From: Balneola sp.
GTDB taxonomy: Bacteria > Bacteroidota > Rhodothermia > Balneolales > Balneolaceae
Assembly (NCBI GenBank): GCA_002694685.1
Contig: NZMW01000003.1
Location: 1 to 64,000 of the forward strand
Direction: 5' to 3'
Length of the DNA: 64,000 bases
Each line of letters starts with the position of its first letter. Position 1 is the first letter of the stretch. The position numbers were made by a program, and so were the translations under genes. Shown here piece by piece: positions 17,772 to 29,755 of this stretch. Below the pieces are notes generated by a model that did not search any database, was not told where the DNA came from, and saw only the letters and a program-made list of their open reading frames with translations.

Positions 17772-19019
17772 TCACATTCCCGCCACAGCTTGCATCATAA
17801 GAGCACAAGCCCACGCACCATAAGTACCTAAGGCATAACCTAATACCGCGAGTAATACACCAACCGGTGCAAGTGCAGGGTGGAATGCAGAAGCTACAAT
17901 CGGTGCCGATGCTGCACCTCCCACGTTAGCCTGGCTTCCTACAGCTACAAAGAAAAAGGGAGCTTTAATCAATTTCCCAACCGTGAGAAGAACAAGGACA
18001 TGAATGAGAATCCAAACGGCACCAATGACGAAAAAACCGGGAGCGTCCAGCATTGAGGCGATATTCATTTTCATGCCGATTGTCATTACAAGGATGTAGA
18101 GAAACAAACTTCCCACTTTAGAAGCACCGGCTCCTTCAAGGTTTCTAACTTTGGTAAAAGAAAGGATAAGCCCACCAGTAGTTGCAACTACTACAATCCA
18201 GAAAAAGGAGGAGTCTAAACTCATACGGGATAACTGAGGAGCATTCGCTTTTACCCAAGGCCCCACTGAGTCACCAACAAGGTGTCCTAAGGCGACCACT
18301 GAAAATGCTACGGCCGCAATTTTTGTGAAATCAACCAATGACGGAACACGAGCAATATTTGCCTGATAGTCAGCGATTTTATTTTTCAATTGATCGATTG
18401 CCGAAGAATCAGCTTTAAACCATTCATCAACTCGGTCAGAGATACCAGCTCCATACAGTAGAAAAGCCAACCAAATGTTAGCTACGATGATATCTACAGT
18501 CACCATAGCGCCAAATAAATCGGTGCTAGGTTCAAAAACTTCCAGCATTGCGGTTTGATTAGCACCACCACCAATCCAACTTCCGGCTACAGTTGCTAAC
18601 CCTCTCCAAACTTCTTCAGGTCCGGTTCCTCCCACAATTTCAGGACTTATTGTTCCCACAATTAATAATGCGATAGGCCCCCCAATCATAATACTTCCGG
18701 TTCCGGCCAAGAACATAATGATAGCTTTGGGCCCAAGATTGTAAATACCCTTCAGGTCGATACTCAACGTGAGTAAGACCAAACTAGCTGGCAATAAATA
18801 TCGGGAAGCCATGTAATAGAGGTTTGATCCTTCCTCTGAAACAATTCCAAATGTTGTTAGCAGAGAAGGAATGAAATAGCACAACAGAAGGGAGGGAACA
18901 AATTTATAGAACTTCTTCCATTTGGGATTATCACTGTGAGAAGTAGCGAAAATTCCGGCTAGTATCGCCATCAGAATTCCAAAGGTGACGGCATCATTGG
19001 TGATAAGTGCTGAATCCAT
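17772..19019 (-). CDS. DUF819 family membrane protein
   Basis: A 415-residue polytopic inner-membrane protein with about ten hydrophobic segments, of the DUF819 (YjcL) family. The N-terminus, ITNDAVTFGILMAILAGIFA, is followed by ATVAGSWIGGGANQTAM and VGSQANVGGAASAPIVASAF, Gly-rich repeats typical of inverted-topology transporters. The family is distantly like sodium-dependent anion transporters, but no substrate is established. It stands alone, flanked by the repeat element at 17569-17721 and the divergent lysine operon. Confidence 0.88.
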   Translation of the reverse strand: MDSALITNDAVTFGILMAILAGIFATSHSDNPKWKKFYKFVPSLLLCYFIPSLLTTFGIVSEEGSNLYYMASRYLLPASLVLLTLSIDLKGIYNLGPKAIIMFLAGTGSIMIGGPIALLIVGTISPEIVGGTGPEEVWRGLATVAGSWIGGGANQTAMLEVFEPSTDLFGAMVTVDIIVANIWLAFLLYGAGISDRVDEWFKADSSAIDQLKNKIADYQANIARVPSLVDFTKIAAVAFSVVALGHLVGDSVGPWVKANAPQLSRMSLDSSFFWIVVVATTGGLILSFTKVRNLEGAGASKVGSLFLYILVMTIGMKMNIASMLDAPGFFVIGAVWILIHVLVLLTVGKLIKAPFFFVAVGSQANVGGAASAPIVASAFHPALAPVGVLLAVLGYALGTYGAWACALMMQAVAGM

Positions 19020-19202
19020 GAAGAGAGATTTATTCCTGATTTATTTCGATTGAGAATACAAAATTCTTGGGAATGAGTCAGAAACTGTTTTCAAGATCTA
19101 GAATAGAAAAAAAGAGTTAAATAGAGCTTTTCTATAAGGGATTGGGTGTGATAGTCTTTATTTTTAGTGTTCTCTCACTCAATACATAAACACATTAAAT
19201 CA

Positions 19203-20531
19203 ATGATTGTATCCAAATTCGGAGGCACCAGCGTTGGCACATTCGAGGCCATGCAGCGCAGTGCCAATATTGTGGCAGCCGACTCTGACCGTCAGCTGAT
19301 AGTAATCAGTGCCACATCAGGCACAACGAACGACTTGGTCGCTTTGTCAGCCAATAACATCGATTCGACACAGCGGGAAGAACTGTTGGGGAATATTGAA
19401 AAAAGGCATATTGATATTATCGAGCAGTGCAAAGAGCAGGATAAACTCAGGGACATTTTCTATAAAGAGTTTTCTGCATTACGAGAACATCTGGATTTTG
19501 TAGGTCGTGATAAGCGCTGGAAAGACCAGCTTTTCGCCTTTGGTGAGTTGATGTCGACTAAAATATTTGTTGAAGTACTGAAAGAAGTAGGCGTAGATGT
19601 AGAATGGCTGGATGCTCGTTCGGTAATGAAAACGGATTCCACGTTTGGGAATGCAGATCCGATTCTGGCTTCTATCAAAAAGAAAGCTGATAAGAATATC
19701 CAGAAAGGAAAAACCTATCTAACTCAAGGATTTATTGGTTCTGATGTATTTGGCAATACAACAACGCTGGGAAGGGGTGGTAGTGATTTTTCAGCCTCAC
19801 TTTTTGCGGAAGCGATAGGCGCAGAGACTCTGGAAATCTGGACAGATGTTGCCGGAGTTTATACAACCGACCCCCGAATTGTGCCAGAAGCTTTTCCTAT
19901 TCAGGAAATTAGTTTTGATGAAGCTGCTGAGCTTTCCGTTTTTGGTGGAAAAGTTCTGCATCCGGCAACACTTAAACCGGCCATAAGGGGAGGAGTGAAT
20001 GTCCGCGTAGCCTCAAGTACGCATCCGGATTTACCGGGAACGTATGTAGTAAAAGAAGCGGACAATAAACCGCCCATCCGAGCAATTTCTCTCCGTAAAG
20101 ATCAAACGCTCCTTACGGTGAACAGCCTTGAGATGCTTCATCAGCATGGATTTCTGGCTCATTTATTCAAAACGTTGGCCGAACATAAAATTTCGGTAGA
20201 TCTGGTAAGTACCAGTGAGGTAAGTGTAGCACTAACATTAGATACCGCAGTAAATGCAGCTAACAAGGTGGAACTGACGGATGATATCATTGAAGAGCTC
20301 GAGCGTTTTGCTGAAGTTATTGTAGAAGATGGATTGGCCCTGATTGCTTTAATTGGGAATAATCTCCAGAAAACTTCCGGTATTGGCGGACCGTTATTTA
20401 CCGCTCTTGAAACATACAATGTGCGTTTGATCTGCCACGGAGCTAGTCCAAATAATCTTTGCTTTCTGGTTGACCATGAGCAGTCGGAAGATGTCGTTCG
20501 TATGTTGCACAAAAAATTTATTACTGAATAA
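19203..20531 (+). CDS. lysC: Monofunctional aspartate kinase
   Basis: Phosphorylates aspartate with ATP, the committed step to lysine, threonine, methionine and isoleucine. I start at MIVSKFGGTSVG, 36 bases inside the longest frame, because KFGGTS is normally near the N-terminus; the product is 442 residues. Further motifs are FGELMST, TLGRGGSDFSA and the C-terminal ACT region (VNSLEMLHQHGFLAHLF). No homoserine dehydrogenase domain is attached. The gene heads the lysC-dapB-dapA-dapD operon, so its ACT domains probably respond to lysine. No lysine riboswitch is evident upstream. Confidence 0.95.
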   Translation: MIVSKFGGTSVGTFEAMQRSANIVAADSDRQLIVISATSGTTNDLVALSANNIDSTQREELLGNIEKRHIDIIEQCKEQDKLRDIFYKEFSALREHLDFVGRDKRWKDQLFAFGELMSTKIFVEVLKEVGVDVEWLDARSVMKTDSTFGNADPILASIKKKADKNIQKGKTYLTQGFIGSDVFGNTTTLGRGGSDFSASLFAEAIGAETLEIWTDVAGVYTTDPRIVPEAFPIQEISFDEAAELSVFGGKVLHPATLKPAIRGGVNVRVASSTHPDLPGTYVVKEADNKPPIRAISLRKDQTLLTVNSLEMLHQHGFLAHLFKTLAEHKISVDLVSTSEVSVALTLDTAVNAANKVELTDDIIEELERFAEVIVEDGLALIALIGNNLQKTSGIGGPLFTALETYNVRLICHGASPNNLCFLVDHEQSEDVVRMLHKKFITE

Positions 20532-20547
20532 AAACCATCAGGTATTT

Positions 20548-21225
20548 ATGAAAATTGCAGTTATTGGAGCAGGAAAAACAGGCGGAAAAGTCGTTGAGCT
20601 TTTGGGAGATGAACTTTCCGAAGTTTTTGACGGGGATAATAAGCTCACCGTTGAAAAGCTAAAAGAATCTGACGCTGCCATTATATTCGTTCCCGGTGAC
20701 GCGGTTTCGGATATTATTGGCACCGTTATTGAATCCGGAATTCCAGCGGCATGGGGAAGTACGGGACATAAGTGGCCGGAAGACTTAGAAGAAAAAGTAA
20801 AAGCAAAAAATACCAGGTGGGTTCTCGCTTCTAATTTTAGTTTGGGGATGAATGTGATCCGCAAAAGCATCGAAGCTATTTCAGCCGGTTCAGCTATTTT
20901 GAAAGACCCGGAATTTCATATTCACGAAGTGCATCACATTCATAAAAAAGATGCTCCAAGCGGAACAGCACTTTCCTGGAAAGAATGGCTTGATAAAGAA
21001 GCAGAGGTCACATCAGCCCGCGAAGGGGATGTAAAAGGAATTCATGAGCTAACCTTGAAAACCGGCACCGAAGAAATCACCCTGAGACACAAAGCATTAG
21101 ATAGAGCTTTATTTGCTGAAGGAGCAATTTGGGCAGCAAAGCAGCTGGTCAATAATTCGAAGATGGAAGCGGGAATTCGTACCTTTGGGCAGTTATTTGA
21201 TCAAATTATGGAGGAACAGGAATAA
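20548..21225 (+). CDS. dapB: 4-hydroxy-tetrahydrodipicolinate reductase
   Basis: NAD(P)H-dependent step of diaminopimelate and lysine synthesis. Starting at MKIAVIGAGKTGGKV gives a Rossmann GxGxxG-type motif at the N-terminus; the longer frame overlapping lysC is not used. The catalytic EVHHIHKKDAPSGTALS is intact. The 225-residue length is short for DapB (about 240-270). The loss is in the N-terminal half, where the cofactor loop is compact. The start is 16 bases after the lysC stop, and the stop overlaps the dapA start (TAATG). Confidence 0.93.
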   Translation: MKIAVIGAGKTGGKVVELLGDELSEVFDGDNKLTVEKLKESDAAIIFVPGDAVSDIIGTVIESGIPAAWGSTGHKWPEDLEEKVKAKNTRWVLASNFSLGMNVIRKSIEAISAGSAILKDPEFHIHEVHHIHKKDAPSGTALSWKEWLDKEAEVTSAREGDVKGIHELTLKTGTEEITLRHKALDRALFAEGAIWAAKQLVNNSKMEAGIRTFGQLFDQIMEEQE

Positions 21226-22112
21226 TGGAAAATTTTCCACTTTGGACGGCGATTGTCACCCCTATGAATACCGATGGGAGTGTAGATTTCAAAAGCTTTG
21301 AAACCATTCTCAAGAAACAGGAAGACGCCGGTAATGGAGTGCTGATTTTAGGAAGCACCGGAGAAGGGTTAAATCTAAATGAAGAAGAAAAACGGGAGAT
21401 CGTAGAGTTTACGAAAGACCTGGATTTGGTTGTTCCAATGATGGTCGGAATCGGAGGATTTAACCTCCCTGCACAGGTCGATTTCATTCATTTCTGCAAT
21501 GAAATTGAACCGGATGCCTTACTACTGGTAACTCCTCTATATGCAAAACCTGGAGCCGAAGGACAGTTTGAGTGGTTTTGCGAATTGATGGCGGAAACAG
21601 AAATTCCATGCATGCTCTACAATGTTCCTTCCCGAACAGGTGTAAAAATGCACCCAAGCGTTCCGGCACGATTGAATGAAGAGTTTGACCATTTGATGGG
21701 AGTGAAGGAAGCCAGCGGAAGCGTAGAAGAGTTTAAGGCTTTTCGCCAGGAAGCTCCTAATGTCAAGTTCTACAGCGGAGATGATGGTATGACGCCGGCT
21801 TTCACCAAAGAAGGCGGTGTTGGCTTGGTTTCGGTAGCCTCAAACGTATGGCCAAAAGCAACACACAAATATGTAGACCTTTGTCTTGAAGGGAAGACAG
21901 ATAATCTATTTCCTCTCTGGAAAAACGCAACGGATGCCTTGTTTAAAGCCCCAAATCCCGTTCCTGTGAAAGTATTACTCAGTACCAAGAACTGGATCGA
22001 TAATGATACGGTTAGGTTACCATTGTCACTAGGTGATATTTCAGATGAGGTAGAGCAAAACCTTGCTAATTACGATAAAGAAATCACGAGCTGGCTAGAA
22101 GAGCAGCACTAA
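21225..22112 (+). CDS. dapA: 4-hydroxy-tetrahydrodipicolinate synthase
   Basis: Condenses pyruvate with aspartate semialdehyde, the branch-point step of lysine synthesis. The 295 residues form the standard class I aldolase barrel. It has GSTGEGLNL near residue 45, YNVPSRTGV with the catalytic Tyr, and the Schiff-base Lys in MGVKEASGS. The gene is translationally coupled to dapB. Feedback inhibition by lysine is common in the family but was not judged here. Confidence 0.96.
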   Translation: MENFPLWTAIVTPMNTDGSVDFKSFETILKKQEDAGNGVLILGSTGEGLNLNEEEKREIVEFTKDLDLVVPMMVGIGGFNLPAQVDFIHFCNEIEPDALLLVTPLYAKPGAEGQFEWFCELMAETEIPCMLYNVPSRTGVKMHPSVPARLNEEFDHLMGVKEASGSVEEFKAFRQEAPNVKFYSGDDGMTPAFTKEGGVGLVSVASNVWPKATHKYVDLCLEGKTDNLFPLWKNATDALFKAPNPVPVKVLLSTKNWIDNDTVRLPLSLGDISDEVEQNLANYDKEITSWLEEQH

Positions 22113-22144
22113 TTAAGAATTGAATTAATTAATACATATATAAA

Positions 22145-22891
22145 ATGAGTTACGAAGATATTTTAGATCAATTAGAAGAAGGAACCGTACGAGCAGCCAA
22201 TAAAACTGAAAATGGCTGGGAGGCGAATATTGAGGTTAAAGAAGCAATTTTGGCTTCTTTTAAAGACGGAGAGAATACTTCTTATGAAGGTATTTATGAA
22301 GGATTTGTAGACAAGCACAATTTGCCTCCGCGATTTTTTGGTCCTGAAGATGGCGTTCGATTAGTGCCCGGTGGTTCTTCTGTACGAAGAGGAGCTTACG
22401 TTTCTTCAGGAGTGATCATCATGCCACCTGCATACATCAACGTAGGTGCATATGTAGATGAAGGCTCTATGGTTGATAGTCACGCGCTGGTAGGTTCTTG
22501 TGCACAGATTGGTAAAAACGTCCACCTCTCTGCAGGTGTTCAAATTGGCGGGGTTTTAGAGCCCGTTGGAATGAACCCAGTAATTATTGAAGATGATTGC
22601 TTTATCGGAGCAGGATCTGTGATCGTTGAAGGAATTCTTGTTAAAAAAGGTGCAGTGATTGCTCCTGGTGTTACCCTTTCAAAAGCAGTACCTGTTTACG
22701 ATACTGTGAATAAAACGGTGCTTGAACGCGGAGCTGATATCCCAGAAAATGCAGTTGTGATTCCAGGAACTCGTCCTGTTAACAACGATTGGGCGAAAGA
22801 AAACGGGCTCAGCATGGCTTGCCCAATTATCGTGAAGTACAGAGATGAAGGGAGTAATGCTTCGCTAGAGCTGGAAGAGGCACTTAGATAA
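22145..22891 (+). CDS. dapD: Tetrahydrodipicolinate N-succinyltransferase
   Basis: Transfers succinyl from succinyl-CoA to tetrahydrodipicolinate, which places lysine and peptidoglycan diaminopimelate synthesis on the succinylase route. The 248 residues include a short helical N-terminal domain and a left-handed beta-helix of hexapeptide repeats. Visible parts are [40 protein letters not shown] and [14 protein letters not shown]. It is slightly shorter than proteobacterial DapD (about 274). It ends the operon just before a strong terminator. Confidence 0.94.
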
Positions 22892-27715: not shown

Positions 27716-29395
27716 CTAAACGGCCAAAGCTTTATTGGCAACAGCCAATCCCTTCACAAAAGCCTGAATAACAGCCTCAAGTGTATCAGGAGATGCTCCT
27801 TTGGAAGTAAATCGATGTCCTTCTTTTTCGAGGGTCAGAGTTACAATTACAAGGGAATCAGTATCAGGACTTAGAATCTCTACTTCGTGATTAATCACTT
27901 CAAGAGGAAGGAATCCATCGGTCTCAGCTTTGATAGCTGTCAGGATAGCATCAATAGGACCTACGCCCTGATCCAAAGAAATGACCTCATCCCGGTCTTC
28001 AATTTTAAGTTTCACGGCAGCACTTACCAAGCCATGCTTTCGCATTGTAAGTTTATAATCAACAACTTCAACAGGGTGTTTAAGGTCAGCGTCTTCATTA
28101 TATACCAAAGAACGCAGTACTTTGATTTCTTCCTCTTTAAGTGTTTTCCCTTTGCGGTTTATGTTATGCACGTACTCATCATATAGCTTAGTATGACCTT
28201 CATCCATGCTTACATTTTCAAAACCTGCATCACGGGATTGTCCCCAGCTGTTTTTCTGCATATCAATATATCCCGATTCGATATACTGTTGAATGCGCTC
28301 CAGGTTTGCCGGAAGTACAGGGGAGGAGAGCGAATACTTAGCTACAATGTGTGAGCTCTTTAATCCAGTTCCTGTGAGTACAAAAAGACATTTTTTGCCT
28401 TTAAACTTATCCAGATTATTTTTGAATGTAGCCAGTGGGATAGCACAAGCCGGTTCAGTGAAGTAGCCTTCCTCAACCGTCATCTCTTTCATGGATTCGA
28501 GCAACTCATTTTCAGTTGCTGTAAAAGCAAGTCCATCCGTTTCTTCAATACCTCGCAAAACTTTGTAGAAATCAAGGGGGTCTCCAACGGCAACGGCATC
28601 TGCCATCGTGTTAACCTGCTCTTTCACAATTTTGTCTTTTTTGAAAATACCTTCCACTACAGGAGAACTTTGCTCTGGCTGAACGGCCACAAAACGGGGT
28701 ATTTTATCAATCATACCTGAGGCCTTCATTTCCTTGTAGCCCTTATAGATAGCTGCGAAATTGGTTCCGGCACCGATAGGAACAAAGATGTAATCGAAAT
28801 CGGTATCACCTTGTTCTTGCAGCTCATAGGAAAATGATTTCTGACCTTCCTGACGAAATACATAATCTCCTGCTAAGTAATAATTACCGGACTTGGCAAA
28901 TTCACGGCAAAGCTTCTCACAAGCCATGAAATCCCCTTTTATTTTGATGATGTTGGCATCGTAAATAGTTGCTTGAGCTAACTTTACTTCCGGGGTCTTT
29001 TCCGGAACAAACACAAAACAGGGTATTTTAAAATAACAGGCATAAGCGGCCACAGATGCAGCCATATTTCCGGTAGAAGCCAAACAAATTGCATCCGCTT
29101 CTAACTCCAGTGCTTTCTGAACTTCAACATAGCTTCCACGATCTTTGAAACAACCGGTTGGATGTTCAAATTCGAGCTTTGCATAGAGTTCCGCCTCATA
29201 TCTTTCTGAAAGCCTATTTAGTTTTTTTAGAGAGGTGAAATTATTTTTTAAGGGATCCGGGAGAATCTCTTTCAGGGGATACTGAATATTTTGAGCTGTT
29301 TCATTGTATTCAATATCCAACACGCCGCCACATTCTGTGCAGTAAGTACTAGTCTCTCTTTCGTCATTTTCATGGCCACACATAATGCAGCTCAT
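27716..29395 (-). CDS. thrC: Threonine synthase fused to a LeuA-type allosteric domain
   Basis: PLP enzyme that converts O-phosphohomoserine to threonine. A zinc-ribbon-like N-terminus has Cys at 3, 6, 19 and 22. The fold-type II domain shows PTGCFKDRGS (PLP Lys 84), ASTGNMAASVAAYA, GAGTNFA and FVLTGTGLK. After about residue 370 comes an extra segment, KGKTLKEEEIKVL, then a domain from about 439 to 559. It carries DQGVGPIDAILTAI and PDTLEAVIQAFVKGL, the hallmarks of the alpha-isopropylmalate synthase regulatory (LeuA_dimer) domain. Ordinary threonine synthases lack it. I infer allosteric control by leucine or isoleucine. I use the ATG at 29395; 29422 is possible, while 29473 lies upstream of the probable promoter. 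Confidence 0.88.
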   Translation of the reverse strand: MSCIMCGHENDERETSTYCTECGGVLDIEYNETAQNIQYPLKEILPDPLKNNFTSLKKLNRLSERYEAELYAKLEFEHPTGCFKDRGSYVEVQKALELEADAICLASTGNMAASVAAYACYFKIPCFVFVPEKTPEVKLAQATIYDANIIKIKGDFMACEKLCREFAKSGNYYLAGDYVFRQEGQKSFSYELQEQGDTDFDYIFVPIGAGTNFAAIYKGYKEMKASGMIDKIPRFVAVQPEQSSPVVEGIFKKDKIVKEQVNTMADAVAVGDPLDFYKVLRGIEETDGLAFTATENELLESMKEMTVEEGYFTEPACAIPLATFKNNLDKFKGKKCLFVLTGTGLKSSHIVAKYSLSSPVLPANLERIQQYIESGYIDMQKNSWGQSRDAGFENVSMDEGHTKLYDEYVHNINRKGKTLKEEEIKVLRSLVYNEDADLKHPVEVVDYKLTMRKHGLVSAAVKLKIEDRDEVISLDQGVGPIDAILTAIKAETDGFLPLEVINHEVEILSPDTDSLVIVTLTLEKEGHRFTSKGASPDTLEAVIQAFVKGLAVANKALAV

Positions 29396-29461
29396 GGTAT
29401 ATCCGGAATTGGTTGCTTTCATGAATAAAAGATTAATGGGATTCGTGCAATTTTGCGACCC

Positions 29462-29509: not shown

Positions 29510-29755
29510 TTACAAAGGAAGAATAATGATTTGTTCGAAGTCAAGGTCGAGTTCTGATAGAACGGGAGCAGCAATTTCTTCAATTTCAGATTCACTATAA
29601 TCGTTGAGCCCTTCCAGTTTCACGTAAAGAATCTCGTTTTGCTCATCAATAAAAAATTGAGCATCATCTGATTCAAAACTCTCTTTCAGCGTTTGTATTA
29701 GAAATTCTACATCTTCAATAAAAGCTTGTAATTCGTCTTCGGTAGGTTCGCTCAT
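29510..29755 (-). CDS. Small acidic protein of unknown function
   Basis: I do not recognise this 81-residue protein. It is strongly acidic (MSEPTEDELQAFIEDVEFL at the start) and seems to alternate helix, three strands (QFFIDEQNEILYVKLEG) and helix, ending EQIIILPL. There is no signal or membrane segment. It lies directly upstream of the threonine synthase gene on the same strand. The promoter-like TAACTTTG between them suggests separate transcription. Confidence 0.65.
   Translation of the reverse strand: MSEPTEDELQAFIEDVEFLIQTLKESFESDDAQFFIDEQNEILYVKLEGLNDYSESEIEEIAAPVLSELDLDFEQIIILPL

Follow-up and report, generated by a model that had tools for sequence, protein, structure and literature searches.

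We report a gene fusion in Balneola sp. that joins a threonine-synthase-like, PLP-dependent enzyme to a C-terminal LeuA_dimer domain, encoded on the minus strand of a 64,000-nucleotide stretch of contig NZMW01000003.1, the whole of which is referred to here as the window. That the fusion is real is near certain. We consider it probable that the protein is a threonine deaminase that comes from the threonine-synthase branch of its fold family and is controlled by a sensor of the type found in 2-isopropylmalate synthase (IPMS) and citramalate synthase, and not by an ACT domain. This reading is well supported for the orthologues in CPR bacteria, and for the window protein, to which it is extended by sequence comparison, it is the most likely one. 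In the open-access papers that we surveyed, no PALP-LeuA_dimer protein is described.

Gene coordinates and domain architecture

The frame at 27719-29395 (-) translates into 559 aa, and all residue numbers of the fusion protein given here refer to it. The frame remains open upstream of 29395, the start adopted in an earlier, sequence-only reading of this DNA, and an in-frame ATG at 29422 (MKATNSGYTMSC...) would add nine residues (MKATNSGYT). Since relatives keep a comparable N-terminal extension (MKSSNSGYTMSC, MESTNTGYTMSC), the fusion gene probably spans 27716..29422 (-), with its stop codon at 27716-27718 and a product of 568 aa. The two-domain protein that had been placed at 27716-29395 is thus present there, on the minus strand, and only its start is likely to move. 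Upstream of the fusion and on the same strand lies a small, conserved, acidic ORF of 81 aa (29510..29755 (-)), which recurs at 31 of the 45 loci with a fusion gene and matched no Pfam or NCBIfam family. A search of the window with Rfam found no regulatory RNA.

The catalytic domain (28370..29236 (-)) is a PLP fold-type-II domain of the threonine-synthase branch, assigned from its Pfam match and its motifs. It matches PF00291 (PALP) over residues 54-342 with an E value of 1.4e-62, and it carries the PLP lysine K84 within GCFKDRG, the loop ASTGNMAAS, and LAGDYVFRQEGQKS in place of NSxNPxRxEGQKT; F83, K84, D85, R86 and G87 are kept in all 29 aligned members. It is preceded by a zinc-ribbon-like Cys4 segment (29327..29390 (-); C3, C6, C19 and C22), recognised by its cysteine pattern, whose matches to zinc-ribbon Pfam families stayed below cutoff and whose C6 is lost in some relatives. 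A linker and helical connector (28118..28369 (-), roughly residues 343-426) lead to the LeuA_dimer regulatory domain (PF08502; 27746..28117 (-)), which contains the GVGPIDA motif and is supported by both Pfam and the AlphaFold2 model. The sequence-only reading had recognised both domains, and profile searches bear it out: PF08502 matches residues 427-550 with 61.2 bits (E 1.2e-16), above its gathering cutoff of 24.9, as that reading had required, and the C-terminal domain profile matches the regulatory domain of Leptospira citramalate synthase (3f6g/3f6h) with an E value of 2.6e-12.

In the AlphaFold2 model the protein forms two well-formed domains, with the lowest confidence in the linker at about residues 385-400. 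The modelled C-terminal part consists of two beta-beta-beta-alpha repeats, as in the IPMS regulatory fold (strands at 442-450, 457-465 and 471-477 and a helix at 480-492, followed by strands at 499-507, 516-524 and 527-535 and a helix at 538-557). Whole-protein fold searches returned no PDB entries for the regulatory domain, a result that says nothing against the identity of that domain. A tree of regulatory domains did not separate a LeuA-type from a CimA-type origin. A Tyr present in most CPR domains and in that of Leptospira is replaced by His in Balneolales (His503 of the window protein); judging from this divergence, the ligand in Balneolales could differ.

Departure from ordinary threonine synthases

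By sequence and by fold, the nearest solved relatives of the fusion protein are threonine synthases (structure Z about 37-41 in the fold search), the window protein reaches 176 bits with TIGR00260 (threonine synthase; cutoff 167), and two CPR members exceed the cutoff of PRK08197. Despite this kinship, we judge it likely that the protein is not an ordinary threonine synthase. Five solved threonine synthases, as well as the canonical ThrC of the window genome, have N-S-x-N ahead of an arginine, a segment that we take to be the contact to the phosphate of O-phosphohomoserine (1v7c complex). In every fusion protein aligned at this site, from Balneolales and CPR bacteria alike, it is replaced by L-A-G-D-Y-x-F-R, which is one residue shorter, and A175, G176 and D177 are invariant in the 29-sequence alignment of fusion proteins.

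The hosts of the fusion point in the same direction. In the window genome, a canonical thrB-thrC pair exists apart from the fusion, beside a ThrA-type homoserine dehydrogenase. In nine Balneolaceae fusion genomes (G006, G007, G009, G011, G014, G015, G019, G022 and G029), neither a homoserine kinase over the cutoff of TIGR00191, the one model on which this absence is based, nor a PF14821 ThrC was found, and eight of them (all but G006) also lacked detectable KARI_C (IlvC) and HMGL-like (LeuA) genes. Several of the nine are 97-100% complete; five are at least 97% complete and entirely without a second ThrS-like match, and G019, which has a second ThrS-like gene, is the weakest case among them. 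As thrB and canonical ThrC were not found in these nine hosts, an enzyme limited to converting O-phosphohomoserine into threonine would be idle there. The absence of IlvA or thrB from any single incomplete genome is weak evidence. Residues 1-370 had been described from sequence as a complete threonine synthase, a description that is hard to maintain given that N-S-x-N is gone and that the protein is kept in nine genomes with no thrB or canonical ThrC found.

Distribution, phylogeny and selection

A survey of other genomes, which the sequence-only reading had proposed, recovered the fusion across Balneolales and in a few CPR bacteria. Each of the nine same-genus genomes searched has a full-length copy, as do most members of Balneolaceae, and the fusion also occurs in two more families of Balneolales; Gracilimonas, Balneola and Fodinibius/Aliifodinibius are among the carriers. 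The CPR carriers (Peregrinibacteria, Gracilibacteria and Wirthbacteria) share the same architecture at 34-36% identity over the full length; the fusion occurs in six of 380 genomes of the CPR phylum, and the LeuA_dimer domains of nine CPR members score 64.9-83.9 bits. Searches of plasmids yielded no further LeuA_dimer fusion, their sole match being a LeuA.

Two trees unite the Balneolales and CPR fusion proteins in a clade that excludes IlvA and the characterised threonine synthases (support 86/94 in one tree and SH-aLRT 99 in the second); the second tree contains two plasmid sequences, xL203 and xL204 (from L203 and L204), that are wrong-frame translations and were left out of its reading. 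Comparisons of the window gene with its same-genus copies gave dN values of 0.03-0.08 for either domain, whereas dS was saturated or exceeded 1.4. Purifying selection is strong on the two domains, the sensor being constrained like the catalytic domain. This selection, together with the conservation, rules out a chance or assembly artefact. One copy (L036, genome G034) has a single in-frame TGA, which marks either a pseudogene or a sequencing error.

Genomic context in CPR bacteria

The CPR loci place the fusion among genes of branched-chain amino acid biosynthesis. We observed the order fusion-ilvE-ilvD-ilvC-ilvB in G127 and G141, fusion-x-ilvE-ilvD-ilvB with ilvC next in G163, ilvE-ilvB-ilvN-fusion-ridA in G062, and ilvB-ilvN-ilvC-x-ridA-fusion in G361. 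On shorter contigs, the order is fusion-ilvE (L119), leuC-leuD-leuB-x-fusion (L123) or fusion-ridA (L117 and L118), and no neighbours of the ilv, leu or ridA type were seen at L121 and L124. The neighbours in G062 and G141, the RidA of G361 and the IlvE of G163 were confirmed by profiles, and the remaining genes were named by reading their sequences. Threonine/serine dehydratases yield enamine/imine products, which RidA deaminates (PMC9127364, PMC12172467). A PALP scan of seven fusion-bearing CPR genomes, all drafts of unstated completeness, found CysK, TrpB and sometimes ThrC among the PALP proteins; it found no classical IlvA in any of the seven and no match to canonical ThrC in four.

We therefore regard the fusion as likely to be a threonine deaminase in CPR bacteria. 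A link of this protein to the threonine-isoleucine node had already been drawn from sequence and is supported here. That reading had placed the regulation on threonine formation, and the position of the CPR orthologues, which is that of ilvA, points instead to control of threonine use.

Genomic context in Balneolales

Around the window gene, the genomic surroundings tell a different story. The lysC-dapB-dapA-dapD genes (19167..22891 (+)) are convergent with the fusion, from which about 4.8 kb of other genes separate them here, and they adjoin it directly in relatives, including Gracilimonas and Balneola; dapD is convergent with the fusion at 17 Balneolales loci, and in Fodinibius thrC-thrB-thrA lie between the fusion and the dap genes. 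An earlier statement that the location offers no clue therefore no longer holds. The anmK gene stands beside the fusion at 28 of 45 loci, and no functional connection could be drawn from this association alone. Among the other genes of the region, the segment 23051-27710 between dapD and the fusion encodes a YdjC deacetylase, a metallo-beta-lactamase fold protein, a DUF5060 protein and a GH115_C-like protein, and the same gap measures only about 65 bp in the same-genus genomes G006 and G007. A DUF819 membrane protein (17772-19019 (-)) is divergent from lysC, and similar genes lie by lysC/dap in several relatives.

In Balneolales the fusion is not part of an ilv operon. Classical IlvA, encoded in the ilv region, coexists with it in the window genome, CimA coexists with it in G028, G037 and G040, which have a CimA-type operon, and the fusion persists in Balneolales without a branched-chain pathway. 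Taken together, these three observations make an isoleucine-biosynthetic role unlikely in this order. The invariant substrate-loop motif, which the CPR proteins also carry, speaks for a common chemistry in the two groups, and we hold it slightly more probable than not that the fusion acts as a threonine deaminase in the window organism, where it would probably serve as an additional or catabolic enzyme under similar control.

The branched-chain genes of these hosts showed two further features. The sole HMGL-family gene of the window genome encodes a 2-isopropylmalate synthase (L009:16667-17824, contig C4; 385 aa) without a LeuA_dimer domain, and such short LeuA proteins are the rule in relatives too, so that leucine feedback must work otherwise there. 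The branched-chain operons of Balneolales come in two types, one with IlvA and a KARI of about 146-149 bits (L009) and one with CimA and a KARI of about 215-229 bits (L181-L183 and L185-L188), which suggests wholesale operon replacement.

Proposed mechanism and alternative explanations

We infer the reaction, the ligand, the sign of the regulation and the role in Balneolales from the evidence above. The proposed reaction is the conversion of threonine into 2-oxobutyrate and ammonia, by an enzyme whose origin would lie in the threonine-synthase branch of fold type II, as opposed to the IlvA branch, and which would have gained an IPMS/citramalate-synthase-type regulatory domain where IlvA carries ACT domains. 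Threonine would form an external aldimine at K84 and then be dehydrated, and the loss of N-S-x-N would disfavour O-phosphohomoserine. The LeuA_dimer domain of the dimer would bind a branched-chain amino acid, with isoleucine the likeliest, and activity would be lowered through the linker; in CPR bacteria, the 2-oxobutyrate would be supplied for isoleucine. Two observations favour isoleucine as the ligand, the ilv context and the similarity of the domain profile to the regulatory domain of Leptospira citramalate synthase; we give it about an even chance, leucine or valine being possible instead. The chemistry has precedents: the ThrC of Microcystis aeruginosa acts in vitro as a threonine deaminase, showing sigmoidal kinetics, and threonine deamination by Thermus and Bacillus ThrC is possible at high threonine (PMC12172450).

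In line with the sequence-only reading, the protein could be a regulated threonine synthase isozyme, which would make threonine from O-phosphohomoserine under inhibition by a branched-chain amino acid. Its closest solved relatives and its TIGR00260 score agree with such an enzyme, as does its adjacency to thrC-thrB-thrA in Fodinibius and to lysC-dap in Gracilimonas and Balneola. We nevertheless find it unlikely, in view of the replacement of N-S-x-N in all members, the canonical thrC beside thrB in the window genome, the nine fusion genomes in which thrB was not found, and the position in CPR ilv operons with RidA. A bifunctional synthase/deaminase, with the balance between the two activities set by the LeuA domain, is a somewhat less probable variant; both activities do reside in one ThrC (PMC12172450), and in the four of seven scanned CPR genomes without a canonical ThrC match the fusion could cover both steps, but the signature of a true synthase for its substrate is lost and thrB was not found in many fusion hosts.

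A PLP reaction unrelated to threonine, such as cysteate formation, serine dehydration or O-acyl-homoserine elimination, would suit the persistence of the fusion in genomes without threonine and branched-chain pathways, and the structural matches include, at middle rank, a sulfonolipid-type PLP enzyme of Alistipes (9k3c, CapA2). It appears improbable given that the CPR orthologues are tied to ilv operons, and cysteate synthase in particular was rejected, since TIGR03844 gave 40.9 bits, far below its cutoff of 324.9. Even less probable, in our view, is a phosphorylation-independent route, in which O-acylated homoserine would be turned into 2-oxobutyrate or threonine under branched-chain control with homoserine kinase bypassed. 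In five of the thrB-negative genomes examined, metX-like genes, identified by eye, lie beside hom; if this route were true, its reaction would be without precedent in the fold family, and Balneolaceae that appear to be threonine auxotrophs would be prototrophic. The idea of a trans action of the LeuA domain on the truncated LeuA of the host draws on the fusion having the only LeuA_dimer domain of the window genome, whose LeuA ends at 385 aa without one. We consider it very improbable and rejected it: at least eight fusion genomes lack any gene of the HMGL family, and LeuA without LeuA_dimer also occurs in the fusion-free genomes G012, G026 and G030.

Implications and comparison with known systems

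If the threonine deaminase reading is true, feedback on threonine use has been built twice, once from IlvA with ACT domains and once from a ThrC-type catalyst with the sensor of IPMS/citramalate synthase. A missing isoleucine step would be filled in some CPR bacteria, where the copies are scored by NCBIfam as threonine synthase, and a conserved protein of Balneolales would have its likely annotation corrected. Metabolic engineers would gain a differently regulated threonine deaminase, and the fusion would provide a natural test of the LeuA domain as a portable allosteric module.

Short-class ThrC proteins (B. subtilis 6cgq, T. thermophilus 1uim and M. tuberculosis 2d1f) share the fold of the fusion protein, with 31-34% identity over the catalytic domain, and they share the FKDRG motif of the PLP lysine, the STGN loop and the LTGxGLK segment. 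The fusion differs from them in that N-S-x-N-P-x-R becomes A-G-D-Y-x-F-R, with one residue fewer, in that the GNAGN loop becomes G-x-G-T-N, and in its extra C-terminal LeuA_dimer domain. Several plasmid genes labelled thrC or 'threonine synthase' (L195, L198 and L205 from haloarchaeal plasmids, together with L201 and L202) also lack N-S-x-N and fall into separate clades; judged by this segment, they may be misannotated as well. The one from Haloarcula lies near amidohydrolase and nucleobase-transporter genes.

The ThrC of Microcystis aeruginosa resembles the fusion as an enzyme of the ThrC lineage for which threonine deaminase activity has been measured. It differs in being active as a synthase too and in having a short, incomplete regulatory segment (E419-L433), and the text of that paper does not mention a LeuA or isopropylmalate synthase domain (PMC12172450). 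To IlvA (BTD1/BTD2, ACT-regulated; PMC3851459) the likeness lies in the predicted reaction, in the place within CPR ilv operons and in the overall plan of a catalytic domain followed by a C-terminal feedback domain. The C-terminal domain of the fusion is, in contrast, LeuA_dimer and not ACT-like, and the IlvA models score far under their cutoffs (TIGR01124, 74.6 against 411 bits; TIGR01127, 91.4 against 379; TIGR02079, 90 against 441). The R domain of 2-isopropylmalate synthase and citramalate synthase (3f6g/3f6h) is matched by a PF08502 score over the cutoff, by the two beta-beta-beta-alpha repeats and by the GxGPxDA motif; there the domain is attached to a TIM-barrel acyltransferase, whereas here it is carried by a PLP enzyme.
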